The notes beneath the pieces are model-generated. The model ran no database searches. It saw only the letters and a list, made by a program, of their open reading frames with translations, and was not told the DNA's origin. Made by a program: the position numbers and the translations under genes. DNA of 64,000 nucleotides, taken from assembly GCF_003260195.1 (NCBI RefSeq), contig NZ_QEIH01000003.1, forward strand, positions 62,001-126,000, given 5' to 3'. The DNA comes from Lutibacter citreus. GTDB lineage: Bacteria; Bacteroidota; Bacteroidia; Flavobacteriales; Flavobacteriaceae. Below are positions 1-27,103 of this stretch, in pieces. The number at the start of each line of letters is the position of its first letter. Positions within the stretch are counted from its first letter, which is position 1.

Positions 1-3000
1 AGTTTCTAAAGTAATTACAGGGATATCTTCAACATTCAATGTAAAATCAGTTGAAGCACTTCCGCATGTTCCAACAACATTTATATTAAAAGTAGTTTTA
101 GGTAAAATTGCTGTTGGTGTTCCAGTAATAATCAATTCATCATCTACAACCACATAATTAATTCCTGCAGGTAATGTAGGTGTAATTGATAAGTTTGAAA
201 CACTTAATGGAATTCTATATTTTAAAGTTTCAATTGCAGTGCCAATACAAGCAACTTGATTGATACTTTCACTATCTGTATTTAAATCAATAAATGCATC
301 CGGTTCTACAATAATACTTCCTTCAAGAACATCACTACATCCAGTTTCAGATGTAATACTATAATTATAGGTTCCTGTAAGATAAGGAGTACCACTTATA
401 ATACCACTACCTGTTGCTTGATCTGTAGTAAATAAAACACCTGGAGGTAAAACACCATATAGTTTTAATAATTGACCAGCAGTACCTTGGTATTGAATGT
501 TGTTTGGTAAGTTGTTACTTATACAAACAATTTCATTAGCATTACCATTTATTAATGATAAACCAGCCGGAGTTGTTATTTCAATTTCACCAGTTGTGGT
601 TGTACTATCACAAGTACCTACAGTAGTTATTGTGTAAGTGTATTTATTAGCTGTATCACAACTATTTCCAGAAATTGTTAAAATATCATCTTCAATATTC
701 CAAATAATTCCTGAAGGTAAACCAGTTACTTTAGCACCAGTTGCACTACCACCTAATCTATATAGTATAGGAGATATATCATTACATTGACAAATTAGCT
801 GTGATGATAATTTTGTGTCAATAGGTGTTATAGTATCATTTTCATTAATTGTTAAATTACCACTAAATGAAGAATTACAAGTTGGTAAAGGTCCTGATGT
901 AACTACTGTATAATCAAAACTACCTACTACTGTTGGTACACCTGATATAGTAAGTACATTTCCGGCTAAACTAGCTGTAACTCCTGAAGGTAAACCTTCA
1001 GCCGTTGCATCTGTAGCATCTCCTGTAATATCAAAATTAATATTTACTATAGGATTGTTTTCACAAACTGTTTGATAAATTTCAGAATCAGCTTGCGGAC
1101 TTATACCCGAATCAAATACTACTACGTTAGCAGTTTTAGGTTCTAAAAGGGTAGGAGTATTACAATAAGAACTATAAGTACTTGAGTCTTCAACATTAAT
1201 TAGTTCAATCTTATAATCTCCAGCAAAAGTTGTAGGTATATTTATTATTGCACTTTCACTAGTTCCTATACTTGAGTTTGTATATTCTATACCATTTATT
1301 GTATAAGTAAACGTGTAAGGAGCAATACCATTTGAACCAGTAAATGTAATTGTTGGTTCTGTATCATTTTTACAAACTTCATATGTATTAAGTCCTGTTA
1401 TAGAGGCATTAATAGTTGGTTTAAGAATTACATTTATTTGAGCTGTATTATCACATCCATCAGCTAAAGAACCAGTTACAAAATATGTTTGGTTTGTTGT
1501 AGGAGTGAAAGTATAGGCATCTGTATTTATTAGTAGAACTGGAATACCAGAAGCATCTAGTTTATACCATTCGTAAGTATCAGCTCCTGTCGCTGTTAAT
1601 GTAATTTCATTTCCTTCACATACTTCAATTTCACTTAAACCATTTTCTATAAGAACTGTAGCTATATTGGTATTTACATTTATTTCACCAGTAATTGGTG
1701 CAGCGCAACCGGTTGAAGATTCTATACTATATGTAAAAGTACCACCTTGAGTTGGCGATCCTGCAATGATACCTGTAATAGGGTCAAAAGTTACACCTTC
1801 AGGTAATGTTCCAGAAAGCGTTAATGCTGCTGCTGGAGCTGTTGAAGGAGTTGTTGAGATACTATAAACAATGTTTTCTATAGCATTATTAATACAGGTT
1901 GATTGAACTGAAGTTCCAGAGGCTAAAAGAATTTCACTTTCAGTTATGTTTATTGTTCCAGTTTCTGTTGTTTGATTACAATCATTTTCAGTTGAAAATG
2001 TTTCTACAGTATAACTAAAGACTCCAGTCTCAGTTGGAGTACCTGAAATTTTAACGGTTGTACCGCTAACTGTATATGAAATACCGGCAGGAGCATTAGG
2101 AGAAAACTCTACAGTTGCACCTGTAGCACCACCTTCTAAATCATAAGTTATATCAGTAATAGAATTATTATTACAAACATTCTGAATATCTGAACCAGGG
2201 ATTTGTAATGATAATTTTCCAGTTTCATTAACTGTTAATGTTCCAACGAAATCAGTATTACATCCTAATAATGAACTAGAAGTTTTTACTGTATACTCAA
2301 ATTCACCAGTTTCATTTGGACTACCTGTTATGGTTAAAATACCTGGGTTACCAGGAGTAGTGCTAGGCACATATTCACTAGTTACACCACCTGGTAAGTC
2401 ATCTACATAAGCATTTGTAGGTGAACCATTAATTTCAAATATAATATCTATAATTGGTTCATTTTCACAAACTATTTGACTTACTTCAATTAAGTTTAAT
2501 GGATTAACACCAGCATCTAACACGTTAATAAAGGCTTGCGTTGGTGCAATTAAATCACCATTATTACAGCTAGCATTATCTTTAATACTTAATAAAGTAA
2601 CAGTATATAAACCTGTTAATGTTGTAGGTATTTCAGTATCTAAATCAACTTCGTTACCAGATGAAGTAACACTACCTGTTATTGGCGTTGCTAATAAATC
2701 TGAACTTATTTCATAAGTGAAAGTATAAGGTGCAGTTCCTTTATCACCAACAAAAGTGATTGTTGGAGAAGGAGCATCTTTACAAACTTCAAAATCATAT
2801 GGTGATTTAATAGTTCCTGTAATTGCAGGTATAATTGTTATTTTTATATCATCTGTATTTTCACATCCAAAATTATCAGTACCTGTTAAAGTATATGTTG
2901 AAGACAACACAGGTTTAAAAGGTACACCATCTACCACACCATTATTCCAAGTATAAGACGTTGCTGTACCAGAAGCTGTTAATGTTACTTCCTCACCAGC

Positions 3001-3363
3001 ACAAACCTGAATTTCATCATCTACACCAGCATCTACTGCAGGTATATCTCTAACGTTAATAGATACTGTTTCAGTTAATGATTGAGTACAAGTATCAGAA
3101 CTTCCGTCTGTAATACTTGTTAAATTAACATCATATGCACCAGCAACACTTGTGTTAAGCGAAATTGTTGCAGAATTACCAATAGAAGTAACAGACTGAG
3201 TTGCACCACCATTTATATTATACTCAAATTTGTATGGAGCCATACCAACTGCTCCTGTAAATGTAACAGTTGCAGGTGTGTTTAAACAAACTTCACTATT
3301 AGAAGAAGTGATTGTAGCTGTTGATAATGGATTAACAGTTACAGAAGTTTTAACTTCTGAACT
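1..3363 (-). repeat. Mixed repeat modules at the C-terminal side of the giant protein
   Basis: The reading frame continues with modules of about 80-110 residues, including types related to both higher-order repeats. At the left edge the translation still reads as a normal module (PKTTFNINVVGTCGSASTDF...) and no stop or sorting domain is reached. Periodicity is less clean here than in the neighbouring arrays. Confidence 0.5.
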
Positions 3364-6300
3364 TTCACAATATGGAGCATTTTGATTTATTATTGTTACA
3401 TAATAATCACCAGGAATAGTTGTATCAAAAGTAGAAACATTTCCAGGATTAGGAACTCCAGCAGGTAAGTTTCTCCAAACATAGTTATATGAGCCAGCAG
3501 GAGTAGGGATAACCTGAATAGTTGCTATGTTACCTTCACATATTACTGGATTATTAACAGTAAGTGTTGGTAATGGATTAGCTTTTACTACAATTTCTTT
3601 AATATTAAAAGAGCACCCTGTAGTAATATCTTCAGCTTTAATATAATAAGCTCCTTGAGTCACAGCCATTGGATTGGCAACAGGTTCTGAAGCTGCAATG
3701 TTTGTCCAATAAGTAAACGTTAATCCAGGATCTGAACCAACAGTAATTGCAGGATCAGTTAAATCGGCAGTTTCACCTTCACAAATTGTGTCTGGATCTG
3801 TTACGACTAAACTTGGCGGAGGCAATACTTTTAATGTAGCCGTTTGATCCGTTATTGCTTGTGTACAAGGATTAAAACTTGAATCAGTGATACTTATTAA
3901 ATTAACAGTATATGTACCAGGAGTGCTTGTATTAAGTTCAATGGTACTCTCAGTTAAAGTTGATGTTACGGTTTGTGTAGCACCATATTGATCAATATAT
4001 TCAAATGTATATGGAGCAGTTCCATTTGCACCTGTTAATGTAATTATTAAAGGAGAATCTATACAAACCTCAGTATTATCATGATTGATAGTAGCTGTTG
4101 GTAAAGTATTTACAGTTACTACTCCTGTTCCAGTAGTGCTTTCACAATATGGAGCATCTTTATCTGTAATGAAAACAGAGTAGGAACCTGCTACAGTTGT
4201 ATCAAATGTAGAAATATTACCAGGTGTTGTTGCCCCAACAGGTACTGTCCAGTTATAATTATAATTACCAGGAGTACTTGGTGTTGCAATAATAGTAGCA
4301 TTATCACCTTCACAAATAGTTTCGCTATTTACAGTAACAGATGTTAAAGGCATTGCAGTTACATTAACTTCAGCAATATTAGTACATCCAGTACTATTTT
4401 CAGCTTTAATATAATACGATCCAGCACCAACAGCAGCTGGATTTGAAAGTGATGTTGTTGCAGTAATATTAGTCCAATAAGTATATATTAAACCATTATC
4501 AAATGGAGTAATAGTATTCTTTAAATCAACAGTATCACCTTCACAAATAGGATTTGGATTTGTAATAGTTAAACTTGGAGGATCAGATACTTCTATTGTT
4601 TGAGTTTGTCCAGTTAAAGTTTGTTTACAAGAATTTGGACTTCCACTAGTAACGCTTAATAAGTTTACATTATAAAAACCAGCAACACTAGTATCAATTG
4701 AAACGGTAATAGTATTTCCTGAAGATATTATAGGTGTTAATGGTCCACCATTAATATTGTATTCAAAGGTATAAGGAACTGTACCTGAACTAGCAGTAAA
4801 GGTTACTGCTGCAGAACCATCAACACAAACTTGAGATGTTAAAGTACTAATTATAGCTGTTGGTAAAGGTATTGTAGTAACAACTCCTGTAGCAGTAGTA
4901 CTTTCACAATATGGAGCATCTTTATCTGTAATAAATACAGTATAAGAACCTGCTACAGATGTGTCAAATGTAGGAACATTACCAGGTGTTGTTGCCCCAG
5001 CAGGTACTGTCCAGTTATAATTATAATTACCAGGAGTACTTGGTGATGCTGTAATAGTAGCGTTATCACCTTCACAAATAGTTTCACTATTTAGAGTTAC
5101 AGTTGTTAAAGGAGATGCTGTTACATTAACTTCAGAAATATTAGTACATCCAGTACTGTTTTCAGCTTTAATATAATAAGATCCGGCACCAACAGCAGCT
5201 GGATTTGAAAGTGATGTTGTTGCAGTAATATTAGTCCAATAAGTATATATTAAACCATTATCAAATGGAGTAATAGTAGTTTTTAAATCTACTGTTTCTC
5301 CTTCACAAATAGGACCCGGATTTGTAATAGTTAAACTTGGAGGATCAGATACTTCTATTGTTTGAGTTTGCCCAGTTAATGTTTGTTTACAAGAATTTGG
5401 ACTTGCGCTAGCAACACTTAATAAATTAACATTATATGTGCCTGCAACATCAGTATCAATTGAAACGGTAATAGTATTTCCTGCAGATTCTATAGATTCT
5501 GTTGTACCACCATTAATATCGTACTCAAAAGTATAAGGAGCAGTTCCTAAACTTGCAGTAAAGGTTACTGCTGCAGAACCACCAATACAAACTGGTGAAG
5601 CTGAGCTACTAATTACAGCCGTTGGTAAAGCTATTACAGTAACTACGCCTGTACCAGTAGAACTTTCACAATATGGAGCATCTTTATCTGAAATAAATAC
5701 AGAGTAAGATCCCGCAACAGATGTATTAAATGTAGAAACATTGCCTGGGGCCATAGCACCTGTTGGTACTGTCCAATTATAATTATAGCTTCCAGTAATG
5801 TTCGGAGTTGCTGTAATAGTAGTTGTATCACCATCACAAATAGTTTCACTATTTACAGAAACAGTTGTTAAAGGAATTCCAATTACATTAACTTCAGCAA
5901 TACTAGAACATCCAATACTATTTTCAGCTTTAATATAATAAGTTCCGGCACTAACGGCATTTGAATTTGTAATTGCTGTTGTAGCAGTAATATTAGCCCA
6001 ATAACTATATGTTAAGCCATTGTCATAAGAAGTTATAGTAGTACTTAAATCTACAGTTTCTCCATCACAAATAGGAGCAGGGTCGGCAATAGTTAAACTA
6101 GGAGCGGGTAGTACATTTAATGTATGAGTTTGTCCTGTAATATTTTGTTTACAAGATGATGGACTTCCGCTAGTAACACTTAATAAGTTTACATTGTAAG
6201 TACCAGCTATACTACTAGCAACTGGAATGGTAATTACATTTCCAGTAGATGTTATAGATTTTGTTGGAGCTCCATTAATATTATACTCAAAAGTATAAGG

Positions 6301-9300
6301 AGATATTCCTGAATTAGCAGTAAATGTTACTGATGCAGTTTCATCAACACATACTGATGAAGTTAACGGACTAATTACAGCCGTTGGTAAAGCATTTACA
6401 GTTAATGTACCAAATACTGTTGCACTAACACAAGTAGGTCTTAAAACACTAGCAATATCTACACTATAATTATAAGTTCCTGGCGCAAGAGTTGTAGCGG
6501 TATTAAAAGCTTCAACATTTCCAGGAGTCATACCTAAACTAGTAAGGTTCCAAGCATATGTATAAGTGTCTCCAGTTGTTCCAGCCGGATATGTTTGTGT
6601 AACATTTTTTGGGCTAGCATAAATTGAAGCAATTTCACCTTCACAAATAGTTGGACTATTAACTACAATTTCAGGTAATGGAACATCCGTAACGTTTACT
6701 GTTTCTATAGCAGAGCAACCAGTTGTAGTTGATGTAGCTTTAATAAAATATGTTCCTGCAACTGCATTATCGGGTGTGTAATATGGGTTGGTAACAGTTG
6801 CATCAGTCCAATATGTAAAGTCTAATCCAGAATCTGAACCAGCTGTAATTGATGGGTCAGTTAAATCAGTAGTTCCATTTTCACAAATAGGTTGTGGATC
6901 TGTAACTATTAATGTCGGTGCTCCATTTACATTTATTGTAATAGCAAGAGGTGAAGCTGTTAAATCGGTTTCACATCCATTTGCATCTATTATTCTTTGT
7001 AATTCGTAGTTAAATGTTCCTACAGCACTAGAAGACGATCCAACTTGAACGCTATTATTAGTTCCAATAGTTGATATGGTATTTAAAGCCCCTGAATTAA
7101 TAGTATATTCAAAAGTATAAGGTGCAGAGCTATTAGAACCAGTAAAGGTTATTAAATCATCTGTACTATTTAAACAAGTATCTCCACCACCACCTACAGC
7201 AGCAATTGGAGTAGGATTAACATTTACAACTATAGTTTCTGTAGCTGAACATCCTTGAGGACTAGTAGCAGGTAGTTGTAAAGTGTAAGTTACCGCTATA
7301 ATATTACTTGTTGAATTTGTTAACGTTTCTGAAATAATTCCAGTTCCATTATTAACACCAGATGAAGTAATTCCAGTTTCATCATTTCTAGTCCAAGAAA
7401 CAGAACCAGTTGTAACCGGGTTTGCACTTAAATTAGCATCAAGATCATATTCAAATAAATCTCCAGAACAAATTTCAGTTGCCGGTGAGTTTATTGTAAA
7501 GTCTAAAGTAGGAGATGGGTGTACAGTAACTGTTAATGTTTCTGTATTTGTACATCCAATATCTGTAGTTAGTGTATAAACATAATCTACAAGTACATCA
7601 CTATTAGAAGTATTAATAAGTGTTTCATTAATATCATTTGTTCCAGAAGTACTAGTATTTAAAATATTAGTGTTTAAAGCTCTAGACCAAGAGTAAGTTA
7701 CATTACTTGAAGTACTATTAGGAGGGTAATTAAATATAGTGTTTGAACAAACTGCATCAGTTAATGAAGTAGATAACGTTGGTGGCGCAATTACGTCTAT
7801 AGCAAATGGAGGTGAAACAGCTCCAAAACCACAATCATTTTTACCTTGTACTGTTAGGTTACCTGAAGGTGAGCCTAAAGCATAATTTATAGTTATGGTA
7901 TTATTTGTAGTTGTATTTGTACTTCCATCAGGTAATGTCCATAAATAAGATGTTGCGTTAGTTATAGGGCTAACGGTATAAACGTTTCCTGTAGAACCAG
8001 CACAAATCATTTGATCAGAACTTGTAATTGCTGTAGCAGCATCTGGAACAGGATCAATAACAATTTCTATAGTAGTTACTGTATTAGCACAACCATCAGC
8101 AGTAGAAGGAAGAGTTAATTTATAAGTAACAGTAACTGGTACTGATTGATTGTTAGTTAAAGTTTCAGAAATAACTCCAGAACCTGAATTATTAATTTCA
8201 TCTATTTCTGCGATTGCATTTCTACTCCATAAAATAGGTCCTGATGTTATAGGTAAGCTATTCATTGTTGGTGTAAAAGTGAATGACGTTCCAGAGCAAA
8301 CATTTGATGGAGCATTTGTAGCAACCAAATCTAATGAAGGAAGTGGATTAACAATAACACTAACTGTTTCCGTGTTAGAACAACCTTCAGGAGAAGTAAG
8401 CGTATAAATATAATCAACTGCAATACTAGAATCTGTATTGTTAATTAACGTTTCATTAATGTCTCCATTTCCAAAACTTTCAGGATTAGATATTCCTACT
8501 TTCTCAGCTCTTGTCCAAGAGAATGTAAGAGAAGTATTTGTACTAGTTGATGTATAGTTAAATAATTCATTTGAACATATTGGACTTGGTGTTAATGAGC
8601 TAGATAAAGTTGGAACAGCAATAACATTAATTGGTAGTGGAGCAGAAACAGCCCCAACACCACAATCATTTTTACCTTGTACTGTTAAATTTCCAGATGT
8701 ATCTGTAGTAGCATAATTAATAGTAATACTGTTGCTTGTTGTAGTTTGTGTACTACCATTAGGTAAATTCCAAATATATTCTTTTGCGTTAGCAATATTT
8801 GGTGTTGTGTAAACCATACCAGTTTCTCCTGCACATAATGTAGTAGTACCTGAAATGTTTTGAGCATCACTTGGTATTGGTGTTACATCAACATTTAAAG
8901 TTGTATTGGTAATACAAGTTCCATCATTTATTTCAATATCGTAAGTAACTGTAATAACATTAGTAGTTAAGTTTGTTAAACTAGTTTCTGTAATATCACC
9001 AATACCAGAACTAAAACCTTCTGAAATATCTGAAATAGCAGCTCTTTGCCAAGTAAAGGTTGCTCCAGGTATATTGCTGGTAAGTGGATATATAAAACTT
9101 GAACCAGAACAAACAGGTGCTGGTGTAATAGATGTTAATTCTGGAGAAGGGTTTACAGTAACCTGAACTTCTTGAGGTGCATTATTACTACAACCATCGG
9201 CAGTTTCTATAGTATAAGTATAAATAACAGTGATTGCTGAATTTGTATCATTTGTTAGTATCTCATTAATTGAATTAGAACCTGCTCCTGTTGCTGGGCT

Positions 9301-18300: not shown

Positions 18301-21300
18301 ACTAAAACTCCCTGTACCATTAAGTATTGTCCATTCATAGCTAGCCGCGTTTGTATATGTTGCTTCTAATTGTTTAGGAACAAGATCACAAAAAGTATAT
18401 GTTGTCTGTGTAGCATCAATAGTTGCTTTTTCTAAGATGTTAACAGTTATGGTTTCTGTTAAAGTATTTGTATTACAAGCTCCTTTTGGGGTTGCTGTAA
18501 TTGTTAAAGTTGAAAAGCCATTAGAAATATCTGTAGCACTTGGTGTAAAAATAGGTTCTAAATCTAAAGGATTTCCTTGAGTAATAGTACCTGGAGATGT
18601 AGCACTCCAAGTTACAAAATCTACATTGCTAAAATCAGTAAAAGTAACTTGTCCGGGTTGCACTTGATAAGTAGTACCTTCACATATTTCTACAATAGTA
18701 GGGCTTACTGAAAGGGTAGGGTTTTTAATAATAGTATGAACTACACTGGCAACAGCATTGGTAGCACAAGGTGCATTAGCTGTTCCTGTTAAAGTTAAAT
18801 TTACTTGGCCATTACCTATTTCAATAGGTCCAGGTTGGTAAGTAGTAGTTTTTGCATTAGCTGATGTTATAAAAATACCATCACCTCCATTATTAGTCCA
18901 TAATAAATTTCCTCCTGCAATATCTACAAAAGAAACACTAGCATCAGTAGTAGTAATGTTTGTCCCTTCACAAATATTTTGTGTTAGACCTGCATTAACA
19001 ATTGGATTTCTTTCAATAGGAATAGTAACGATTTCAGTTACTAGAGTTGTTCCACAATCTGCCTTTGGTGTAGCTTCAATAGTTAATTCTATATAACCAA
19101 GATTAATATCCGTAACACTTGGTGTTACTAATGGATTTAATGTGGTTTCATTATTAATTGTAGTTCCAGTACTTGAAGTATAAATAAAACTTGTTGCATC
19201 AGTTACGGTAGTTCCTAATACTTGCACATTTGTTTCATTTTCACAAATAGGAGCTTGGCTTGTTACTGAAATAACAGGCAATGCCTCTATATTTACAGTT
19301 ATAGTTGTAACTGAAGAAGCTGCACAAGGACTTATTGGGTTTGCTGTTAACTCTAAATCTATTGTTCCTGCTAAAATATCAGCAGTTGAAGGATTATAAG
19401 TTGGGTTTATTATATTGGTTATTCCTCCAGTAAAAGTTCCTGTTCCAGAAGCACTCCAAGCTAAACTACTATAAGTTCCTGATGTTGCAGTAGCCGTTGT
19501 AATTTGAAAGGGTGTTTCACATTGAGTTAAATCTACTCCTGCGCTTGCAATAGGTTCTGGTATAAAGTTTAATACAATGTTTTCACTTTGAGGTGAAGTA
19601 CAATGAGGACCAATTGGATCTACTGTTAAAGTAAGGGTAACAGAACCATTACTAATATCTGCAGCAGTTGGTGTATAAATAGGATTTAAAGGATCTCCTG
19701 TTGAAGAAAAACCTAATGAACCTTGGCTAGAACTTGACCAATTCGCTAAAGTTACAGGTTCATAGCTATTTATAATAGAAGTTCCTCCAATATTATAAGT
19801 GGTACTATTTGCACAAATATCATCCGTGCCAATTGTAGAAATAATTGGCAATGCTTCTAAATCTATTACTATTTGATCTTGAACTACTTCAAAACAAGGA
19901 GCTAAACCAGTAGCTGTTAAGGTAAGCGTAACACTTCCTGCAGTTAATTCTGCAGGGGTAGGTGTATATGTAGCATTAATAATATCTGTTGGGTTTGTCC
20001 AACTACCATTTCCTCCAACCCAAGCAGTACTTGAATAATTAGAAGCAGTTGCGCTTGAAGTTGTATAAGTGTCAGTTTCACAGATAGTTGCGTCAGGACC
20101 TGCATTTACAATAGGTGTATCTACAAAATTAAGTGTTACTGTATTGGTAGTACTTGTATTACAATTTGCTGGTGTTCTGGCTGCTTCTAATGTTAATATT
20201 ACAGAGCCAGAAGTTACATCGGCAACTGTTGGGTTATAATAAATTGCTGCAGTAGTGTTTAATGGGGTGTCGGTTGGACTAAAAGTTCCTGAGCCAGTAG
20301 TTGTCCATTTTAAAGAGTCGTAATCTAAAGCTGTAACTCCCATAATTTCAAAAGGAGCTGCACCTGAACAAACATCTAATGTTGAGTTTATAACGTTAAC
20401 TGTTGGTATTTTATTAATAGTTAAGGTCATATCATCTATTGCATCAGAATAACAAGGATCATCTTTAGTTGATGTTAAACTAAGTGTAACAAAACCATTA
20501 CTTATATCTGTTGTTCCAGGATGATATGTTGGCGTTAGGGTTGTTTCTCCTGTAAAAGTACCATCACCACCATTATTAGACCAAGCTATTGTTCCGGTAC
20601 CGTTTGTTGCACTAGCATCTGAAACTGTAAAAGATTCTCCTTCACATATTTGTCCATCGCTACCTGCATCCGCAGTAGGATTGGCAATTATAATTACTGT
20701 TGTAGAAGTACCTAATGTTGGTGAAGAACAAGGGCCAATTGCTTGTCCAACTAGGGTAAAAGTAATTGTTCCTGTTTCTCCTATTGCAGAATCGTATATA
20801 GGTGACAATGTATTTTCATTAGTAAATGTTCCTGTTCCTCCACTTTTAGTCCAAGCTACTGTACTAGTGTTGGCTGAAGAACCCAATAAAGTAGCGCTTT
20901 GTCCTTGGCAAATAGTTATTGCGGGACCAGCATTTACTGTTGGATTACTTTGTATAGTAATTGTTACCGAATCATCAATTGTTGTACAACTAGTTTGATT
21001 GGCAGTTAAAGTAAATGTAACAGAACCAGCAATTATGTCAGCCGGAGAAAACTCATATGTAGGATTTACAGTTTTTGGATTTTTTAGCGTACCAGTACCT
21101 GGAGTTGTCCATTGTATAGCTGTTGCATTGGTTACAGTAGCATTTAATGTATAGTTTGGTTGACTTTCACAAACGGTGTCATCGCCACCAGCATCTACTG
21201 TAGGTTCAGCATTAATTGTATATATAAATGTTTCTACAGCTGGAGTTATACACGCACTAATTGGTTGAACAGTAAGAGTAAAAGTTACGTCTGTATTTAA

Positions 21301-24300
21301 ATCTGAAAGATTAGGAGTGTATATTGGTGTTACAGAAGTTTCTGTACCATTAAAACTTCCATTTCCACTTGTTGTCCATAAAATAGTACCAGCATTTTGT
21401 ATTGTAGCACTTAAATTTAATGGGTTTATAGGGCTTGCACATACTATTGCATCTGCAATAGGATCAATAGTAGGTAGTTTTTCAATAGAAAGTATGGTGT
21501 CACTTGTTTCAGAAGCACAAGGTGAGTTACCAACGGCTGTTAATGTAATTGTAACAGTACCATTAAATTTATCTGTTGTTCCAGGTATGTATGTTGGTGT
21601 TAAGCTGTTTGAATTTGTAAAATGTCCATCTCCATTATGTGACCAAACATATGATGAAGCATTTGTAATTACAACATTTGACGGATCGGGCGTGAAAGTT
21701 TCGTTTTCACAAATAGTAGTTGCAGCGATAGTACTTGCTGTTGGCGTATCAACTGCTGTAACAATTACTGTTGAAGTGTTAGAAGTACAGGCATTAGCTG
21801 TATTGGTTGTTAAAGTAATAGGAATACCTGCAGAGAATGAGGCATTATTTACATCTGCAAGGCTTGGAGTATAAACTGTGTTTACACTGTTTGTTGGAGT
21901 TAATGTTCCGGTAGCCCCAGTCGGTAATGCCCAAGAATAACTAGTTGCAAATTGTGAGGCTCCTCCACTTAAAGTAATTGGTGTTGTTCCGCAAGTTTCT
22001 ACATCTGTACCTGCATTTGAAATAGATTGTCTGTCTATATTAATTAAAATATCTTCGTAAGTGGTTGTTCCACAGTTATCAGTTACATTTAAACGTACTG
22101 TAGCAAAACCATTGTTAATTCCCGTAGTTGAAGGTGTAAATTCTACACCTGTTGGCTGTTTATCGGTTAAATTTCCCGAGGTAGTAGGGAGTAGTTCCCA
22201 ATTATAAGATGCATACGGATTTGTTATTGTTGCAGGAATAAAGTAGTTAGTTGCAGTTTCGCAAATAGCAATACTAGGACTGCCAGTAATGTTAATTATT
22301 GGAGTTGGTTCTACAGTTATAGTAACATTGTTAGTTTCAGTACAAGTACCAGAACCAGAAGTTTCTACCAATGTATAAGTAGTTGTAACTGTTGGAGTAA
22401 CATTAGGATTTGAAACATTTGAACTAAACCCAGCCGGGCTGCTTGTCCATAAATAGTTTGAGCCTGCAACGTTTGCAGCACCAATGCTTATAGAGTTACC
22501 TTCACATATTGTGGCGTCACCGGCAACTGTTGCTATAGGATTAGGTAATAATGTGATGGTAAAATCTTCTGAAACTGTACAACCTGTTGCAGTATTGGTA
22601 ATAGTTAGCGTATAATCTTCCGTTTTGGTAACTGTAATGTTTAATTCTGAGGTAGTATTTATTACCCCTGCACTTGAAGTCCATTCATAATCTTGATTTG
22701 GAGGCGTTGTTCCTATAGCATATCCAAATGTTAGATTTTCACCAGCACAATGATCTTCATTTACAATATTTAAAATAGAAGGAAGAGGATTTACTGTAAT
22801 AGTACTAATAGGTGAATTAGCTGTAGAACAAACACCATTTTGTACTACAGCTCTATAATATGTAGTTTGTGTTAACCCTGTATAATTTAGTGAATTTGTT
22901 GTATTGGCTATGTTAGACCAATTTACAATATCGGTTGAAGATTCCCAACGAATAATATTTCCAACATAACCACTTAAAGTAATTGTACCAATTGATACAT
23001 CATTCTCACAAATATCAAAATTAGCAGGATTAATTATACCACCAACACTTGGTGGGTCTACTTGAATATACCCAGGGTTAGAATAACTTGTTGAAGCACC
23101 ACTAGATAAAACAGCTCTGTAATATAAAGATGCAGTATTGTTAGTAATGGTATATGAAGTAGATGTACTAGCTATAGTTACAATACCGCTTGAAAAATCA
23201 GATACAGGAGAAGACTCCCAATTTTGAACTGTTCCAGTATGTCCGGTAAGAACTAGTGAAGCACTTGAATTTCGACAAACAGTTGTACCTCCAGTTACAG
23301 AACCACCAACAGCATTAGGATATACATTAACGGTAACAGGAGTGCGTGCACTTTCACAACCACTTAAACTTTGTGAAACATAATACGTACCAGTAGTTAA
23401 ACCAGTTGATGAAGGTAAGGCAGAACCCCCTGAAGGATTGTTGTACCAGTTTACAGTTGCTCCAGCCATAGGAGTACTAGTAACTAAATCGCTTATGGTA
23501 TAACCAGTACCTGTAAAATCTTGTGCACTTGCTGTTAAAGAGGCAGGTGTTGCAGGCTGTGTATCAATAATAACAGTTGTACTAGGAGAAACACAACCAT
23601 TGGTATCTGTTACTATATAGGTATATGTACCTGATGAAATATTATTATTAGTGTAAGTACTACCACTTCCAGTATATATAACTCCTCCAGGATTTCTAGT
23701 GATCTCGTAATTTCCAGAAGGTAAATTGTTAAATATAACACTACCAAACGGAGTTGAACAAGTAGGTTGTGTTAATGATTGTATTCCAAGTGCAGAAATA
23801 GTAGGTTGGTTATTAATTGTGCCAGTACTTGAAAGAGACGAGGTACACCCATCACTATTGGTTACTGAAAATCTATAAGTATCTGGTGATAAGTTAGGTA
23901 CGTTATAACTAAAACCACTACCTGAATGAGTATAAGTAGGAGTTACATCTCCAGTAATATTTAAAGTCCAACTTCCAGCAGGTAAACCCGTAAGAGGTAT
24001 GCTACCTGTTGCTACGGAACATGTAGTTTGTGTTGGTACCCCAATAGTAGGTACGCTTGGTACAGTTGGTGCAGGGGTTATGGTAATGTTTGGTAAGGTA
24101 ATAGTACACCCGCTGCCGTTACTTACTGTAAAATTATAATTTCCAGCTGCAAGACCTGTATAGTTATAATCAGGTGTATTTCCATTATGATCTAATGAAG
24201 ATCCATCGCCATTATTAATAGCCCAATTACCACCAGTGGTTGGTAAACCCGAAAAATGAACTGTTCCAGTAGATGTTGTACAGTTAGGTTGTGTAACTAT

Positions 24301-25047
24301 AGTTGTTGGTGCATTTGGTAATGCATTTGCTGTAATTGTAACTGTATCTGTATTTGTACAACCGTTAGCATTTGTCCCCGTTACAGTGTAAGTTGTAATT
24401 CCTGCAGTTGCTACTATAAAAGAAGTATTATCTGTAACTCCGTTATCCCAAGTATAAGAAACTGCTCCGCTGCCAGATAAGGTAACAGTATCTCCTTGAC
24501 ATACTGTTAAATCGCTCCCAGCTTCAACTGTTGTTTTCGGATTAACAAATACAAGAGACTCAGTAGAGGTAGTCATTCCAGTTGCATCCGTTACTTCACA
24601 ATAATATTTAGCTTGATTTGATGGATTAAGTGGGTTTATAGACAAACTGTTAGTTGTACTCCCTGAAATATTACCACCATTTACAACTAGGGTTCCTGAA
24701 CCTCTATACCATTGATAAGTTACAGCACCTGTTGCAGAGAGATTATTAATTGTAAGTACTAGATCGTCACCCTCACAAAAAGTTTGACTTCCAGGTAGAG
24801 CGTCAAATGTTGGATTTCCTCCATCGAACAAATTAAAAACAGAAAGGTCACGATACATAATATCTTTATAAGATATTACGTTATTGTAATTAGTAGTTAA
24901 AGATGTTGAGTTTGAGACATTCTTCTTTTTATCAATTGGGACACTGTGTCCATTTGTGTAAGTACTTGAAAAAGAAGTTAATACGATAAACAGTGATGCT
25001 AATAAAAGGGCATGTCCTTTTATAGAATGAGAGTCGGGGTTAATCAT
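1..25047 (-). CDS. Giant secreted PKD/Ig-like repeat protein (SprB/gliding-associated adhesin type), C-terminus outside window
   Basis: The frame opens at ATG 25047 and stays open to base 1, giving at least 8,349 codons; I found no in-frame stop. The N-terminus (MINPDSHSIKGHALLLASLF...) has a basic n-region and a hydrophobic core, so it looks like a signal peptide. The rest is almost only beta-rich extracellular modules. Residues about 60-900 are mixed Ig/PKD-like domains, with motifs such as TQPxC...GLPxGxW and RWESSxD. About 900-3520 is a tandem array with ICEG...W...LTPTY...DI..G.VTLTLT...PC. About 3850-5740 and 6200-7230 are two kinds of higher-order repeat. Each module usually carries two Cys. 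Such proteins in Flavobacteriia are usually exported by the type IX system through a C-terminal domain, which would lie to the left of this window. Surface adhesion or gliding is an inference from family. Canonical SprB repeats were not recognised, so SprB itself is not claimed. Confidence 0.9.
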   Translation of the reverse strand, partial: MINPDSHSIKGHALLLASLFIVLTSFSSTYTNGHSVPIDKKKNVSNSTSLTTNYNNVISYKDIMYRDLSVFNLFDGGNPTFDALPGSQTFCEGDDLVLTINNLSATGAVTYQWYRGSGTLVVNGGNISGSTTNSLSINPLNPSNQAKYYCEVTDATGMTTSTESLVFVNPKTTVEAGSDLTVCQGDTVTLSGSGAVSYTWDNGVTDNTSFIVATAGITTYTVTGTNANGCTNTDTVTITANALPNAPTTIVTQPNCTTSTGTVHFSGLPTTGGNWAINNGDGSSLDHNGNTPDYNYTGLAAGNYNFTVSNGSGCTITLPNITITPAPTVPSVPTIGVPTQTTCSVATGSIPLTGLPAGSWTLNITGDVTPTYTHSGSGFSYNVPNLSPDTYRFSVTNSDGCTSSLSSTGTINNQPTISALGIQSLTQPTCSTPFGSVIFNNLPSGNYEITRNPGGVIYTGSGSTYTNNNISSGTYTYIVTDTNGCVSPSTTVIIDTQPATPASLTASAQDFTGTGYTISDLVTSTPMAGATVNWYNNPSGGSALPSSTGLTTGTYYVSQSLSGCESARTPVTVNVYPNAVGGSVTGGTTVCRNSSASLVLTGHTGTVQNWESSPVSDFSSGIVTIASTSTSYTITNNTASLYYRAVLSSGASTSYSNPGYIQVDPPSVGGIINPANFDICENDVSIGTITLSGYVGNIIRWESSTDIVNWSNIANTTNSLNYTGLTQTTYYRAVVQNGVCSTANSPISTITVNPLPSILNIVNEDHCAGENLTFGYAIGTTPPNQDYEWTSSAGVINTTSELNITVTKTEDYTLTITNTATGCTVSEDFTITLLPNPIATVAGDATICEGNSISIGAANVAGSNYLWTSSPAGFSSNVSNPNVTPTVTTTYTLVETSGSGTCTETNNVTITVEPTPIINITGSPSIAICETATNYFIPATITNPYASYNWELLPTTSGNLTDKQPTGVEFTPSTTGINNGFATVRLNVTDNCGTTTYEDILINIDRQSISNAGTDVETCGTTPITLSGGASQFATSYSWALPTGATGTLTPTNSVNTVYTPSLADVNNASFSAGIPITLTTNTANACTSNTSTVIVTAVDTPTASTIAATTICENETFTPDPSNVVITNASSYVWSHNGDGHFTNSNSLTPTYIPGTTDKFNGTVTITLTAVGNSPCASETSDTILSIEKLPTIDPIADAIVCASPINPLNLSATIQNAGTILWTTSGNGSFNGTETSVTPIYTPNLSDLNTDVTFTLTVQPISACITPAVETFIYTINAEPTVDAGGDDTVCESQPNYTLNATVTNATAIQWTTPGTGTLKNPKTVNPTYEFSPADIIAGSVTFTLTANQTSCTTIDDSVTITIQSNPTVNAGPAITICQGQSATLLGSSANTSTVAWTKSGGTGTFTNENTLSPIYDSAIGETGTITFTLVGQAIGPCSSPTLGTSTTVIIIANPTADAGSDGQICEGESFTVSDASATNGTGTIAWSNNGGDGTFTGETTLTPTYHPGTTDISNGFVTLSLTSTKDDPCYSDAIDDMTLTINKIPTVNVINSTLDVCSGAAPFEIMGVTALDYDSLKWTTTGSGTFSPTDTPLNTTAAIYYNPTVADVTSGSVILTLEAARTPANCNTSTTNTVTLNFVDTPIVNAGPDATICETDTYTTSSATASNYSSTAWVGGNGSWTNPTDIINATYTPTPAELTAGSVTLTLTATGLAPCFEVVQDQIVIDLEALPIISTIGTDDICANSTTYNIGGTSIINSYEPVTLANWSSSSQGSLGFSSTGDPLNPIYTPTAADISNGSVTLTLTVDPIGPHCTSPQSENIVLNFIPEPIASAGVDLTQCETPFQITTATATSGTYSSLAWSASGTGTFTGGITNIINPTYNPSTADILAGTIDLELTANPISPCAASSVTTITVNIEALPVISVTSQAPICENETNVQVLGTTVTDATSFIYTSSTGTTINNETTLNPLVTPSVTDINLGYIELTIEATPKADCGTTLVTEIVTIPIERNPIVNAGLTQNICEGTNITTTDASVSFVDIAGGNLLWTNNGGDGIFITSANAKTTTYQPGPIEIGNGQVNLTLTGTANAPCATNAVASVVHTIIKNPTLSVSPTIVEICEGTTYQVQPGQVTFTDFSNVDFVTWSATSPGTITQGNPLDLEPIFTPSATDISNGFSTLTITATPKGACNTNTLTETITVNILEKATIDATQTTYTFCDLVPKQLEATYTNAASYEWTILNGTGSFSSTGAISSTSPTPQYFPAIDSNVVDILVTVQGIAPCDTTPVSEIITLNKIETPIVTLAENTTTLCNSVPSINLSGATIDNTTASTTYLWTSSSSGATFSNSTNPVSTYTFTSADITNGSVTLRLTATSDATCALEDYDEIVITILDTPTITINNPTTEICEGDIFAVNSIATTTNASSYLWETNGTSDGTFTNANNLTLAEYTPGANDILNGSFTIQLTASGTTTCSPAIETTIVNIIKQPVVNTGSGNGITCASEPFDITGVTGQNYDTLSWASMSSTPGTFSNTAILNPTYTPSAIEIASGLPIVLRITAQPTTPCSSSVFDEIILNLSPEQVVNAGANVTICEGEDVILNGSATNSSSVYWTTSSTGTTFATTENTSYTPSTLDKNNGTVTLTLHAVSDTNCAEVTDDVVVTIVKQPIANAGPSITICEGETYTLLAGEATATNETSLLWTVSGGGSITAGTETTLTPEYVPNAGQSGIVTLTLTAFADPACGSAFDSVATKTINITASPTVNIPANSTICQGESLTITAAEATSTNYSTLVWTSSNGLGTFSPSNTAATVYTPTPAQTGLVTLTLKAIALNGSCTDVSSDLNLTIAPSVIVEAGTGTTICEDETYTISGASVSNGSGVFNWSISGPATITAGTETTLTPEIVPNIGASGIVTVTLEAAGPATCPSPKTDTVSITINPLPIVIAGTPIEACEGITEIQLDGTGSNASSYIWTHTGAGTIQTTTDPLKPKYIPAAADFSNPSGETIITVFLEATGIGSCGNPIASTTITLYSNPTVFAGSDIPTCEGTSVTLSGATATNYSAITWSTSGNGTFDYSTIGGVINPIYTLGSSDTSDVTLTMSATPNIACTAGDITDEVVLNITQLPTITATTNEITLCAETFTLPDLVTITNSTNYTWTNTTVVSNKSVPVYETTETPSITPTVDEINNGFILLTLIAQPTSPCVGTAEKTIKVNLNAAPTIDAGTLISICSDTNPILLNFGASVSPSSTTYNWTTDGTGTILASTVNSLVPQYTPGINETGAVTFTLHASNPSPCVGETTDTVTANITPLPIADAGSDATICEGSSFNVTDADIQFETSIEWIASTHESGTPLSTGTFNPISADIDTPTFTPSLDDISRGYVFLTVKATNACGTSSDYMKLTIDPGVGVFAGNNTLLCEGESYTLFDAIATSAAGGVEWTSAQNSNGTSISSYVGGTFSSTTNTNPTYTPSVDDINQGYVFLILTGTGAGTCSVDDSFMRIDITKKPTITVTDVALCVDSPSITLNSIADNYKTISWSIYSGPGSLSGTNTETPTFTSGLTSSITSLQTTIARAVLEPNDGCSSLETVIQDLIITIQPLPTVQAGDNGEVCYVSGQPIALFPINNTNVINASSQSWSTSAIGTFTAGTPTNYQSLANNCPGTEDLTLTADGIGACSSKNVSDVVTLSISCEAPDLGTITSSSPTILCAGTTGVVYQVANNLSVTNYNWSVPTGATIVNQSVNTITVDYGFGAMNGNVAVYASNSCGNGSISTLPITVNPVPVASSITGNTTVCAGETGVSYTAALIPGATSYTWTLPAGVNLISGATTNTITVDFTTTAVNGDIIVQANNSCGSGAQSVLPITVISEPTLTPITTSAICSGEPFNQTLTSTSGVTFTWDRPIQSGIDGAASGSGDIVNDILLNTTNSTQTVVYNITLTSSEGCTSTDTISVNVDPYPQLTNAPSVTEICSGDIFNYAPTSDTSGTISWSRATTPGITEPGSSNITTPINETLTNTTDAVITVDYEITLPTTAGGCTDTVIVSLDITPSPSPANVIAGNATVCANTTGYTYTVPAIANATSYVWSVPTGATIVSGTTTNTITVDFSASAVSGNIEVYGTNLCGSGTPDLFPINVIAPPTLSNAPVAAEICSGDSFTFTPKSATATSFEWERNTISGISTVPNTGTDDINEILTNTTLTPVTVTYTFTLTTADGCSNTEDIQVQVNPTPVLNNLASAPVEICSGDAYSFTPSATPASTISWTRNTTAEILEGTTSGTGTINDTSLTNLTESVVTVVYNLTIDDGNCINNTTLTVDVNPIPSAAPIINGLTSVCTGSTGNVYTVNNIPNATEYLWTLPNGSPVTTTSNTLVINFAATDTTGDLTVQGKNSCGVGALSPPLTINVVAPPTLSNAPVAAEICSGDSFTFTPTSAIATSFDWERNTISGISNAPNTGTDDINEILTNTTLTPVTVTYTYTLTTVDGCSNTEDIQVQVNPTPALNSAAPMPICSGSNFVYTPTSDPAASTINWAIVNSTDFNASGSSAGSGAINQTLTNLTTNTITVVYNLEIIANGCSNNTSISVDVSPLPDTPGTISGDAIVCEGFNGDYSIPTIDAATSYNWVFNDGTTSSSFTTTTNTLNFGPITSSGNLTVQGGNACGTGTISSDFNITVITPPVLSNAPIAAEVCSNDLFSYTPESTSNINQYDWERVIVSGISNSPSSGTGAINETLINTTTAPITVKYTYLITTNEGCINSEDIDVIVQPLPILNSAAPSPICSGTNFIYNPTSEPAASIINWSIVNSSDFIASGSSTGTGTINQTLTNLTNSVVTVIYDLEIIANGCTTNTSISVDITPLPDPAGLITGISNVCAGSAGNSYTVPLITNATSYLWTLPDGSTVPTSGNTLVTSFSSLATPGNLTVQGINSCGVGTVSDPYYINIIAPPTLSNIPVSAEVCSNEQFNYTADSNSAITYNWTRSFVPGISPATSLGNSKLINEILTNTTNSAITVTYTYTLETAEGCSNTVPQEVQVIVNPSPELTSISPAPVCSGSNFIYPLTSNIPGATFTWERAAISDISEGFSSGTGDISETSLTNLTTNVVSVSYNIEINDGTCFSYTTLSVDVTPTPSDAQNISGTNTLCVGETSVVYTTPTIPNATEYLWNLPNGSTQTTSSNSITLDFAVTDTSGNLTVQGKNDCGVGALSAPYYINIITPPTLSNIPVSAEICSNKQFNYTADSNSAITYNWTRSFVPGISPATGAGSNSINEILTNDTNSAITVIYTYTIETADGCSNNAPQEVQVTVNPSPELTSITPAPVCSGSSFIYPLTSNIPGATFTWQRAAISDISEGFSSGIGDITETSLTNLTTNVITVTYDIEINDGTCITNTTLNVDVTPIPSDAQNISGTTTLCAGETGMVYTTPNIANAKEYIWNLPNGSTQTTTSNSITINYATTDTSGNLTVQGKNDCGVGAVSAPLPINVIAVPTLSSSLTPSPICSNELFNYTSTSTNTSLTFSWTRAEKVGISNPESFGNGDINETLINNTDSSIAVDYIYTLTSPEGCSNTETVSVIVNPLPSLDLVATNAPSNVCSGTSFTFTPTMNSLPITSGPILWSRNAIAEIDEINNSGSGVISETLTNNQSVPVTVTYKLTLPSTADGCANTVTTIEIVIDPVPDAATAITSSDQMICAGSTGNVYTVSPITNATSYLWTLPDGSTNTTTNNTITINYALGSPSGNLTVQGKNDCGFGAVSPPFAIDVIAPPTLSTSLTDAVCSNTIFNYPPNSTSSNVTYSWSRALNTNILNTSTSGTNDINETLINTSNSDVLVDYVYTLTTDIGCTNTETLTVTVHPSPTLDFTINSPATEICSGDLFEYDLDANLSANPVTTGSVSWTRNDETGITSSGVNNGTGIISETLTNSTSNIIAVTYTLQLPATSPQGCSATETIVVNVNPTPIAAVGGGGDTCLNSTDDLITFTGSNSSAPYTFEYTINSGALNTISTIGTNNSVQVGSSSSAVGTFNYELQRIIDANGCETDLTASPLAITINVNGAPTLIVTDPQPICENGTTDLTDPSITAGSDSGLDFTYWTDATVTNPYYTPDNAVAGTYFIKATSTTTGCSAIETVNVTDVPLPEIVVNSPTICEGEIASIYASPKNVTQTYPAGTTGDTYTYAWNLTSLGMTPGNVEAFNTATTLAPGTYNYSVDIASVLRPTCVSATVFGTLTVNALPTAVISPLTSSVCVDETASVTFTANSGISPYTFEYNINGAPTKSITSTGNVITIPVASSIAGTYNVNLLSVTSGSPSSCKQNITGQTHTLNVLPAPSLTIADPAPICDGETVDLSTTITSYDNGLTYSYWANITATTAITNSNAVSAGTYYIKAENSIGCSSIAEVNVIGIPLTTVSVNSETICDGDTTTITATPNITGSYNYNWTVPTGAMAPGNVSTFNTSVAGSYSVFISDKDAPYCESSTGTGVVTVIALPTAVISSSASPVCIGGSAAVTFTASLGTAPYTFEYDINGGTTESIESAGNTITVSIDTDVAGTYNVNLLSVASASPNSCKQTLTGQTQTIEVSDPPSLTITNPGPICEGETVDLKTTITPFDNGLIYTYWTNITATTSLSNPAAVGAGSYYIKAENSTGCTNISEVNVTASPLTTVTLNSETICEGDNATITASPSTPGNYNYNWTVPAGATTPGNVPTFDTSVAGSYTVFITDKDAPYCESTTATGVVTTIPLPTAIISTLTSQVCVDGSAAVTFTASSGTVPYTFEYNINGGPLTPIISSGNTITVSIDTSVAGFYNVNLLSVTSGSPNSCKQTLTGQTQTIEVSDPPSLTITNPNPICEGDTVDLKNTITPFDNGLIYTYWTNITATTSLSNPAAVGAGSYYIKAENSTGCTNIAEVNVTAMPLTSVTVNSETICEGDNATIIATPSTPGNYNYNWTVPVGATTPGNISTFDTTVAGSYSVFITDKDAPYCESTTGTGVVTVNTLPTATINHDNTEVCIDSPLIITLTGANGTAPYTFEYIDQYGATQTVTSTLTESTIELNTSTPGTYTVNLISITDSSFNPCTQAITDQTATLKVLPPPSLVVTDPDTICEGETADLTDPAITVGSDPGLTFTYWTNIAASEPVANPMAVTQGAYYIKAEDITTGCSFNIKEIVVKANPLPTLTVNNPVICEGNIATIQVIPTPAGSYNYVWRNLPAGVPNPGNVSTFDTTIPGDYYVTIINQNAPYCESSEVKTSVTVNPLSTATITSSNSEVCLNTPATVTFTGAVGMAPYKFEYNINGGATQSVTSIGNSATISLNTSVAGAYDVNLTSITDGSSDTCTQSLTETVSINVRDIPAVDAGVDDEIQVCAGEEVTLTASGTATSYTWNNGVVDGVPFKPVLSSTYTLTGTDNFGCENTDDIKITIIPAITGTIKSPYDFEVCKDAPSPTITFVGDKGTAPYTFTYEISSDLLATPITGSVTSSGNEVDLDTEIPTTLTGLYTVTLLSIKDNASCNNGDLIAPTQAFINVLDAGVNPLNLIEVSQIVCENEPIIDIIFEINGSPTNAYVDDLPGGVTSEYVPSTTPGNPGILTITGSPNETGEFEYTVKTSSSLLGCNTDFVGTLTVNETGKLSLQIPGSDIQNVCNNNSITDITYDLEGGATGATVEFSPNAPAGISYTVSGTTVKISGTPTETGVFSYTVETFSTENDCNQTTETGTINITESEILLASGTSVQSTCINNAIENIVYSISTTPSTAPAAALTLSGTLPEGVTFDPITGIIAGSPTQGGTFTYSIESSTGCAAPITGEINVNTNIATVLIENGLSEIEVCEGNEITLTATGADTYEWYKLDASGIPVLLINTDAYTFTPTTNQTYFVTGSLADGCDNTAQINVILKPTINASITGLNTYEVCKNDTEPTITFTGSNGIAPYTFTYTINGIEYTNSSIGTSESAIINIPTTFAGDYKIELINVEDSSTYSSYCNTPTLLEPKTANVVVFDSGISPQADSEIYQTVCENNPIVNINFDITGDATDATAEGLPSGVTASLAGNVLTISGVPTVVGSFDYTVVTSGPLPTCNSSFSGNLTINENDTITPIDTKLSSQLICQCNDISPILYRLGGSATGAKVTGLPSGIIWNIEDDILTISGNSCDTANKYTYTITTVGTCDSTTTTGEIEITTPAGLSLINGNANEIVCISNNLPNNIQYQGTAGQLLKLYGVLPPGVLFTTDQATGSGIISGTPYLTGTYNYSITSETGCSDVLEGSIIVEPDAFIDLNTDSESINQVACIGTAIETLKYRIPLSVSNLSITPTLPAGINYVVVDDELIITGTPTAILPKTTFNINVVGTCGSASTDFTLNVEDIPVITLET
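3364..6427 (-). repeat. Higher-order repeat of about 762 bp, four periods, two nearly identical
   Basis: The plus-strand anchor TTCACAATATGGAGC recurs at 3364, 4141, 4903 and 5665, and a diverged form lies near 6427. The periods are 777, 762, 762 and about 762 bp (254 residues). Each period holds three modules, with peptides such as SYTVFITDKDAPYCES, ICEGDTVDL and CKQTLTGQT. Copies 4141-4902 and 4903-5664 look about 90 percent identical at the base level and share one exact block of 93 bp (4424-4516 and 5186-5278). Confidence 0.8.
7829..13490 (-). repeat. Higher-order repeat of about 805 bp, seven periods
   Basis: An anchor reading CCACAA on the plus strand, followed by a conserved stretch (the Cys-Gly site of one domain), recurs at 7829, 8660, 9467, 10277, 11081, 11882, 12683 and 13490. 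This gives periods of 831, 807, 810, 804, 801, 801 and 807 bp. Each period encodes about 268 residues made of three modules: two PKD-like domains of the kind with INETLTN and CSxxxF, and one shorter module with a TVQG..CG motif. Neighbouring copies near 11570 and 12370 are almost the same over about 140 bp, which points to recent duplication or gene conversion. Confidence 0.75.
14500..22280 (-). repeat. Tandem array of about 28 units of about 276 bp (92 residues)
   Basis: Counting the recurring Cys-Glu-Gly type motif (or its variants) gives 28 positions between about 14790 and 22260, with spacing of about 257-296 bp and a mean near 277 bp. One unit around 20340-20700 reads, in pieces, DGQICEGESFTVSDASA, then IAWSNNGGDGTF, LTPTYHPGTTDISNGFVTLS and a closing PC. 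Trp sits mid-unit and two Cys bracket the domain, as in a disulfide-linked Ig/PKD-like fold. Units are diverged from one another, unlike the younger repeats further left. Confidence 0.75.
22280..24880 (-). repeat. Heterogeneous N-terminal Ig/PKD-like domains of the giant protein
   Basis: Translation of this segment gives non-identical beta-sandwich modules rather than a regular tandem array. Recognisable pieces include an Ig-like unit with QTFCEGDDLVLTI and YYCEV, modules starting TQPxC and containing GLPxG and PGxYxFxVTN, and units with the motif RWESS followed by ITN or YYRAV. These are typical of long Bacteroidota surface proteins. Boundaries are approximate. Confidence 0.6.
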
Positions 25048-25076: not shown

Positions 25077-25084
25077 CAAATATA
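25077..25084 (-). promoter_or_regulatory. Putative -7 box of the giant repeat gene
   Basis: On the minus strand this reads TATATTTG, an exact match to the Flavobacterium-type TAnnTTTG box. It ends 29 bases before the ATG at 25047, which would give a short leader. No TTG was found at the usual 17-23 base distance, so the call rests on the -7 box and its position. Confidence 0.4.
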
Positions 25085-26779: not shown

Positions 26780-27103
26780 AATTTGGGGGTAAAACTTAAA
26801 TTGATGGTTGTGAAATTATAATTTTTAGGCAACCATTTGATACAAATATAAAAAAAAGGAATGATATAAAATTATTCAAAATATAAGTAAAATTATTATT
26901 TATAACGAAAGCTTTATATCAAGGTTTTTTAACCATAAAATTTCATATGTTTTTTGTGTTTAAACATAAGTTGAAATGAGTAATTTTATTTATTAAAATA
27001 TAAATGAAATAATAGAATTAACTTCATTAAATTTATGCCTTTTTAAAATGTAATGTTCTAATTAAATTAGAGATGTTAAATATGAATTAATAGGTTATAA
27101 ACA
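26780..27103. other. Divergent intergenic region, AT-rich
   Basis: This 324-bp gap separates the minus-strand TlpA-like gene and the plus-strand thioesterase gene. It holds one good minus-strand -7 box (26843-26850). I saw no plus-strand promoter that matches well, no hairpin and no small ORF that I would support. Confidence 0.6.
26843..26850 (-). promoter_or_regulatory. Putative -7 box of the TlpA-like gene
   Basis: The minus strand reads TATATTTG, matching TAnnTTTG, 63 bases before the ATG at 26779. A TTG lies 26 bases further upstream, which is longer than the usual spacing. Confidence 0.35.

Follow-up and report, generated by a model that had tools for sequence, protein, structure and literature searches.

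The DNA window analysed here is a stretch of 64,000 nucleotides from Lutibacter citreus (contig NZ_QEIH01000003.1, here C22, positions 62001-126000; the genome comprises 5.1 Mb in 35 contigs). Its left end carries most of an exceptionally long gene for a repeat protein (hereafter the giant), which is flanked upstream by a thioredoxin-like gene and followed, beyond the window, by a gene for a PorP/SprF carrier. The initial annotation, made from the window alone, had described an open frame of at least 8,349 codons running from 25047 past base 1; the listing of open reading frames (ORFs) agrees (1..25047, minus strand, ATG start, 8,349 amino acids inside the window, open at base 1). It had also proposed looking to the left for a stop codon and for a sorting domain of the type IX secretion system (T9SS), and both are there: the stop lies at C22:60036, which is 1,965 bases beyond the left end of the window, and a CHU_C domain occupies the C-terminus. 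The whole frame has 9,003 codons and zero N, and the computed product has 9,003 amino acids, 934 kDa and a pI of 4.05. The features are as follows (Ig, immunoglobulin; pLDDT, predicted local distance difference test).

1..25047, on to the stop at C22:60036, (-): giant gene, codons 1-8349 of 9003 (ORF listing and left extension)
24955..25047, (-): likely Sec signal peptide, giant residues 1-31 (by eye)
1..24777, (-): cysteine ladder from giant residue 91 (part in the window), pairs ~64 residues apart with ~27 between pairs
24553..24813, (-): I-set/Ig_3-like module, giant residues 79-165 (Pfam; Ig_3 under its cut-off)
23317..23505, (-): Ig_7 (CHU_C-associated Ig-like) module, giant residues 515-577 (Pfam)
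20686..21225, (-): pair of modules, giant residues 1275-1454, with Ig-like beta-sandwich folds in the structure model (mean pLDDT 95.7)
1..13701, (-): part with many PKD_6 and PKD_5 modules, the best stretches at giant residues 3783-3957 (Pfam)
C22:58983-59996, directly downstream of the giant: PorP/SprF carrier gene, 337 amino acids (PF11751)
25352..26779, (-): thioredoxin-like gene, 475 amino acids, with an N-terminal beta domain, a helical middle and a thioredoxin fold at the C-terminus (signal peptide by eye)
25679..25690, (-): CGHC active-site motif, thioredoxin-like residues 364-367, invariant in 6 aligned orthologues

Orthologues of the giant adjoin orthologous carriers in the relatives G019, G036, G021 and G018 (8,584, 8,582, 7,375 and 4,226 amino acids, respectively) and in G033, where the frame reaches at least 3,528 amino acids and ends at a contig edge. 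Those of G019, G036 and G021 are open throughout, G019 and G036 being one-contig genomes, and between the latter two giants the nonsynonymous divergence (dN) is 0.043 and the synonymous divergence (dS) 0.16. Because of these long orthologues in one-contig genomes and of the low dN compared with dS, the giant frame is judged, on sequence comparison, to be real, complete in the assembly and under purifying selection. Tandem Repeats Finder (TRF; periods up to 500) reported no tandem array in window positions 1-25047, and a collapsed tandem repeat was accordingly rejected for this part of the gene. The length is indeed exceptional, as had been claimed, when set against the 6,497 amino acids of SprB (PMC9870892; papers are cited here for those portions of their text that were available). 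The product also stands among the largest of its genus, as the initial annotation suggested, but it is not the largest, since a CHU_C frame of 10,083 codons occurs in G019 among the matches listed. This frame (G019:C1:2336007-2336297; L102) and one of 8,965 codons (G036:C1:2388388-2388678; L103; also among the matches listed) have 2 cysteines each in their C-terminal 667 and 1,207 amino acids, and downstream of each come a PorP/SprF-like gene (by eye) and then a gene of ~645 amino acids.

Two features that the initial annotation had missed are a ladder of cysteines in the giant and the linkage of the thioredoxin-like gene. There are 200 cysteines in the giant, of which 186 form 93 neighbour pairs 45-78 residues apart (median 64), or about one pair per module, and 88 of the 92 gaps between pairs measure 20-35 residues (typically ~27). 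By comparison, the maximum obtained in 500 shuffles of the giant was 47 pairs and 8 regular gaps. The spacing of ~64 residues corresponds to the distance separating strand B from strand F in an Ig domain. The same ladder was present in all five giant orthologues measured. Aligned cysteines are kept at 184 of 189 positions in G019, 184 of 189 in G036 and 158 of 166 in G021 (overall identities of 66, 66 and 55%), and at 188 of 188 between G019 and G036. In alignment A4, which contains 38 two-module segments from the window, G019 and G021 chosen on their cysteines (and which was used in place of a 30-row three-module alignment that was out of register), four cysteines are invariant and the two tryptophans between them nearly so. 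Among the papers listed for SprB in combination with cysteine, disulfide or Ig-like, none was seen to treat such a ladder, and those listed for giant T9SS or giant bacterial genes contained nothing on this case.

Like the giant itself, its orthologues start with a hydrophobic stretch (by eye). Pfam stretches comprise two PKD_6, one PKD_5 and two Ig_7 in residues 1-4000, seven PKD_6, seven PKD_5 and two Ig_7 in residues 4001-8000, and PKD_4, PKD and CHU_C in the last 1,003 residues; the terminal CHU_C sorting domain (PF13585) scored 36.2 bits (cut-off 27), and 38.7 bits in a second scan. When the model of residues 1275-1454 was compared with PDB structures, GhpA ranked first, followed by animal Ig and cadherin chains. 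Judged on these two modules, those of the giant are predicted to be Ig-like beta-sandwiches with paired cysteines and a core tryptophan; the model, along with the Ig- and PKD-like Pfam matches, upholds the earlier description of the product as a series of beta-sandwich modules. Several other matches were discarded: NF038112 (myxosortase-dependent M36 peptidase, NCBIfam) gave 132 bits on the repeats against a cut-off of 1500 and was dropped as repeat similarity, Ig_Pom152 was read as generic Ig similarity, and the ChitinaseA_N and cobra-venom-factor matches were marginal. Giant residues 85-234 (window 24346-24795) match the tail protein of PDB entry 9c2d (E = 4.9e-10), probably again through generic Ig similarity.

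Of 38 Lutibacter genomes, 6 carry a strong orthologue of the thioredoxin-like gene, scoring 505-1033 bits; the best of the remaining matches reached 56 bits. Among 397 genomes of the family (3 of them Lutibacter), matches with E of 1e-40 or better were limited to L. citreus itself, G373 (538 bits), G270 (163 bits) and G424 (143 bits), and in the genus of G373 (the second genus) the gene is present in 7 of 18 genomes (529-562 bits). Every one of the 13 strong orthologues has a giant, whole or partial, as its neighbour, and they fall into five genomic contexts (own; G019/G036; G021; G033/G029; second genus). The neighbour is a giant in the L. citreus genome, G019, G036 and G021; in G029 it is a 1,044-residue piece that runs off the contig, matches the giant of the window (E = 2e-15) and contains 12 cysteines in 4 pairs, with 3 of 3 gaps regular. 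In G373 the gene lies 266 bases from a giant that has the ladder and is followed by the carrier, and the six further orthologues of the second genus all adjoin ladder giants. The giant frames of G373 and G469 are broken in the assembly (G373:C10:39545-60412 and G469:C3:219836-235999). In total, 5 of the 13 adjoining giants are complete, 6 run off the contig and 2 are broken, and the ladder is seen in 12. For the weaker homologues of G270 and G424, the giant is absent from the 40 kb taken.

This linkage holds in different surroundings. The gene lies upstream on the same strand in L. citreus, upstream and divergent in G019, G036, G033, G029 and the second genus, and downstream of the carrier in G021. 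Flanking genes are common to G019 and G036 in 2 of 4 tested and to G033 and G029 in 2 of 2, and within the second genus they are shared by eye. Within the 84 kb locus, recurrence in 40 kb of G021, G019 and G036 (E = 1e-10) is limited to the genes for the carrier, the giant and the thioredoxin-like protein, one 30% match in G036 being set aside. Fisher's test on co-occurrence of the carrier (at least 64% identity) and the thioredoxin-like gene in the 38 genomes, with G060 outside the carrier survey, gave a P-value of ~7e-5, which is a guide only, uncorrected for kinship. Since all 13 strong orthologues adjoin giant genes or pieces, the thioredoxin-like gene probably belongs to the giant system. 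We found no report of a link between T9SS, thioredoxin and adhesin in the literature searched, in which subscription papers were mostly beyond reach. What varies here is the addition of the thioredoxin-like gene to the cassette; repeat proteins exported by the T9SS and bound to a carrier are already a known kind.

The structure model of the thioredoxin-like protein has a pLDDT of 78, and all 13 strong orthologues carry CGHC. This is the motif of protein disulfide isomerase (PMC9598436) and, as a sequence signature, would fit an oxidase or isomerase role. Two side observations concern the surroundings of the gene. The octamer TATATTTG occurs at window positions 25077-25084 and 26843-26850, upstream of the giant and of the thioredoxin-like gene, respectively; we take it to resemble the Bacteroidota -7 element. 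Further along, a LysR/OxyR-like regulator gene (29246-30190, minus strand) is divergent from a Dps/ferritin-like gene (30306-30776, plus strand), the usual oxidative-stress pair.

The carrier scored 45.9 bits with PF11751 (PorP_SprF; cut-off 22.3), and a PDB search with the carrier profile gave zero matches. Its C-terminal end, SRFYSFY, is cysteine-free and nearly identical in the closest orthologues. The C-terminal tails of the carrier and of its 6 relatives in alignment A1 contain no cysteine and so no Cys-X-Cys, and the motif is also missing from the last 30 residues of all 7 PorP/SprF proteins of the genome, although gldK and gldJ are present (580.1 and 825.5 bits in a profile search, both above cut-off). 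Lutibacter citreus perhaps does not glide with SprF-type attachment.

The carrier clade extends to 49 of the 397 family genomes and 36 of 237 genera. Stretches upstream of the carrier were taken from 20 of the 48 other carrier-clade genomes, and in each of the 20 an open frame ends just before the carrier (9 complete, 1,597-6,523 amino acids; 11 cut by an edge, 218-6,650 amino acids; the sorting domain was not scanned in these frames). Their cysteine regularity varies, with no clear ladder in short or cut pieces or in G111 (2 of 11 gaps), and the thioredoxin-like gene was found in 0 of the 20 stretches. Complete giants accompanied by the gene have 9003, 8584, 8582, 7375 and 7018 (G468) amino acids. 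Complete frames that lack it have 4226, 1498, 1495, 1457 and 2728 amino acids (the last from F. ammonificans, L054, 21-kb locus only) and, stop to stop, 2512, 2534, 2520, 2518, 2560, 5821, 6523, 4941 and 1597 amino acids. Hence the gene accompanies each of the 5 measured complete frames of at least 7,000 residues and none of the 14 shorter ones (15 counting G020, which was excluded from the list as a 965-residue frame whose carrier is only 28% identical). Because of this division, the catalyst may set the attainable chain length. The apparent limit is unproven, since edge-cut frames without the gene reach at least 6,650, 6,648 and 6,638 amino acids, their lack of the gene assuming that the two samples of 397 family genomes are identical.

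We propose, at about even odds (probability roughly 0.5), that the locus encodes a three-gene surface-filament cassette consisting of a giant adhesin, its carrier and a dedicated disulfide catalyst. The giant would be made with a signal peptide, enter the periplasm and fold into a string of ~93-100 Ig-like modules, in almost every one of which the two cysteines ~64 residues apart would pair as a disulfide. The neighbouring periplasmic CGHC protein of thioredoxin fold would act as the giant's own thiol-disulfide catalyst, making or proof-reading these bonds. Next, the type B sorting domain would direct export of the chain by the T9SS, and the SprF-like carrier encoded next door would receive the chain and hold it in the outer membrane, where it would form a long filament for adhesion. 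Because the carrier is without a Cys-X-Cys tail, this filament is more likely to be fixed or freely diffusing than to be pulled along a gliding track. A disulfide in each module suits a fibre that has to withstand force and proteases outside the cell. An oxidoreductase in the periplasm, genetically linked to the giant, would fit the task of folding one chain with ~93 such bonds. More tentatively, and at somewhat less than even odds, the CGHC protein may have evolved with, and act mainly on, this one substrate, introducing ~100 disulfides before T9SS export. The frame, ladder, sorting domain, carrier and linkage are read directly from sequence and the Ig-like fold from a model of two modules, whereas disulfide formation, action of the catalyst on the giant, surface location, adhesion and immobility are inferred.

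A number of observations weigh against this proposal. The segments of alignment A4 having been chosen on cysteines, part of their cysteine invariance is built in. Nor is the ladder peculiar to the giant, since 2 of 5 other CHU_C proteins measured (of 9 in the genome) have regular gaps (4,933 amino acids with 12 pairs and 10 of 11 gaps, and 1,348 amino acids with 13 pairs and 11 of 12 gaps, both stop to stop), the remaining 3, one of them incomplete, having 0 or 1; ladders thus occur elsewhere in the genome, none of those in the 5 proteins compared being nearly as long. In G033 the piece adjoining the thioredoxin-like gene has only 145 amino acids and 2 cysteines, which is too short to display a ladder, and it matches the start of the G018 giant weakly (E = 1.6e-4). 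The strong gene is present in only 2 of the 49 carrier-clade family genomes, and G018 (giant of 4,226 amino acids with 92 cysteines) is without it in a genome that is 88% complete, so a ladder can exist without the gene. Kin of the ResA/TlpA type are often reductants, and the thioredoxin-like protein might reduce rather than oxidise; a VKOR-type oxidase was not found in the genome, other oxidases not having been searched for. The type B model TIGR04131 gave only 23.5 bits (cut-off 35; positions 3-48 of 85), for which reason the giant is classed, on PF13585 and the carrier gene, as new and divergent among the T9SS type B giants, and the carrier itself stays under the cut-off of TIGR03519 (78.7 against 90.55 bits). 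Finally, no PorE-like gene was found after the carrier. Certain type B substrates do not move according to the available text of Paillat et al. 2025 (PMC12618676), whose static example adjoins a PorE-like gene; by this evidence, the absence of such a gene here points toward motion.

The rival explanation that bears most directly on the catalyst is that the thioredoxin-like gene is a chance or historical neighbour with another substrate, the disulfides of the giant being formed by general means. It would account for the absence of the gene from most carrier-clade genomes and for the adhesin frames that bear cysteines without it; besides, the 13 cases share ancestry and reduce to five contexts, and 5 weaker thioredoxin-like matches in the genome could act instead. 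Nevertheless, the linkage survives changes of position and strand while other neighbours differ, and we consider a fortuitous association rather unlikely. An artefact, in which the frame fuses separate genes or reflects a collapsed repeat, is given almost no credence: repetitive sequence does carry a risk of misassembly and the frames of G373 and G469 are broken, but the orthologues are open over their full length in two single-contig genomes, dN/dS is low and no tandem array was found in the window part.

What the filament does is a separate matter. A surface or adhesive role, as put forward by the initial annotation, is plausible, while the specific link to gliding that it also mentioned is unsupported, the carrier being without Cys-X-Cys. 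The giant could be an SprB-like gliding adhesin, moved by its SprF-like protein on a GldJ/GldK track and so pushing the cell forward: the order of the gene pair, the type B sorting domain and the PorP/SprF carrier are all alike, gldK and gldJ are present (GldK with three cysteines), and the carrier is not followed by a PorE-like gene, as with the mobile substrates in the portions of PMC12618676 available. The parts available of Liu et al. 2025 (PMC12635249) describe the Cys-X-Cys tail of SprF as binding GldK and as required for gliding on agar, not for export; substitution of either cysteine abolished agar gliding, although the Cys324Ala variant kept helical movement and short movements remain without both cysteines. 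Because the carrier, like its six aligned relatives, is without this tail that ties SprF to the track, a gliding role is not favoured on present sequence evidence; Lutibacter profundi, moreover, is described in the available text of PMC5219744 as non-motile despite 17 gliding genes. We therefore regard a gliding adhesin as improbable. Still less probable is a grappling-hook-like filament that catches prey or other cells in the manner of GhpA. GhpA is the nearest solved relative of the giant's modules, but in the stretches seen in two phmmer searches the matches are confined to the repeated modules, with nothing significant in GhpA 1-1090 or after ~5,590, the last 600 and last 1003 residues of the giant have no GhpA match, and VIA also returns NCAM2, Robo and titin within 0.8 to 1.6 Z.

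If the three-gene cassette is correct, its interest lies partly in folding. To our knowledge, the periplasmic folding of 9,000-residue chains before export is not yet explained, giant T9SS adhesins themselves being known. A linked oxidoreductase, whose strong orthologues have so far been seen only beside giants, would offer a direct handle on the disulfides and export of one such protein, and a carrier tail without Cys-X-Cys is suggested as a sequence criterion separating non-gliding from gliding giants. The finding also ties T9SS giants to Ig chains of the GhpA type.

GhpA of Aureispira sp. CCB-QB1 (PDB 9flp and others), which we know through the accessible portions of PMC13319060, PMC11205867 and PMC12421860, has Ig-like modules homologous to those of the giant, and, by eye, cysteines of the two proteins coincide in the displayed parts of the alignment. 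It is described as T9SS-secreted (PMC11205867); it differs in length (5,898 versus 9,003 amino acids), and it forms a heptameric hook (PMC13319060). RemZ of Flavobacterium johnsoniae (PDB 8gl8) has one module region in common with the giant (residues 553-830, E = 1e-17), but it has 1,114 amino acids and is a type A substrate bound with PorV (PMC10994853). The thioredoxin-like protein shares its C-terminal thioredoxin fold and CXXC motif with TlpA/ResA-like oxidoreductases (PDB 3hcz, 4yod, ResA); it is set apart by adjoining giant adhesin genes and by CGHC, compared with CSHC, CGPC or CPPC in the listed homologues of the genus. The locus as a whole resembles that of SprB/SprF in F. johnsoniae, which also combines a T9SS type B sorting domain with an adjacent PorP/SprF carrier; the sequences were not directly compared, and SprF has the Cys-X-Cys tail that the Lutibacter carrier lacks. 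The cognate-pair arrangement is the same as that of the F. johnsoniae type B substrates and their PorP/SprF shuttles (Paillat et al. 2025), from which the Lutibacter pair differs in two respects: its C-terminal domain and carrier have diverged, scoring below the NCBIfam cut-offs, and an oxidoreductase gene is linked to it.
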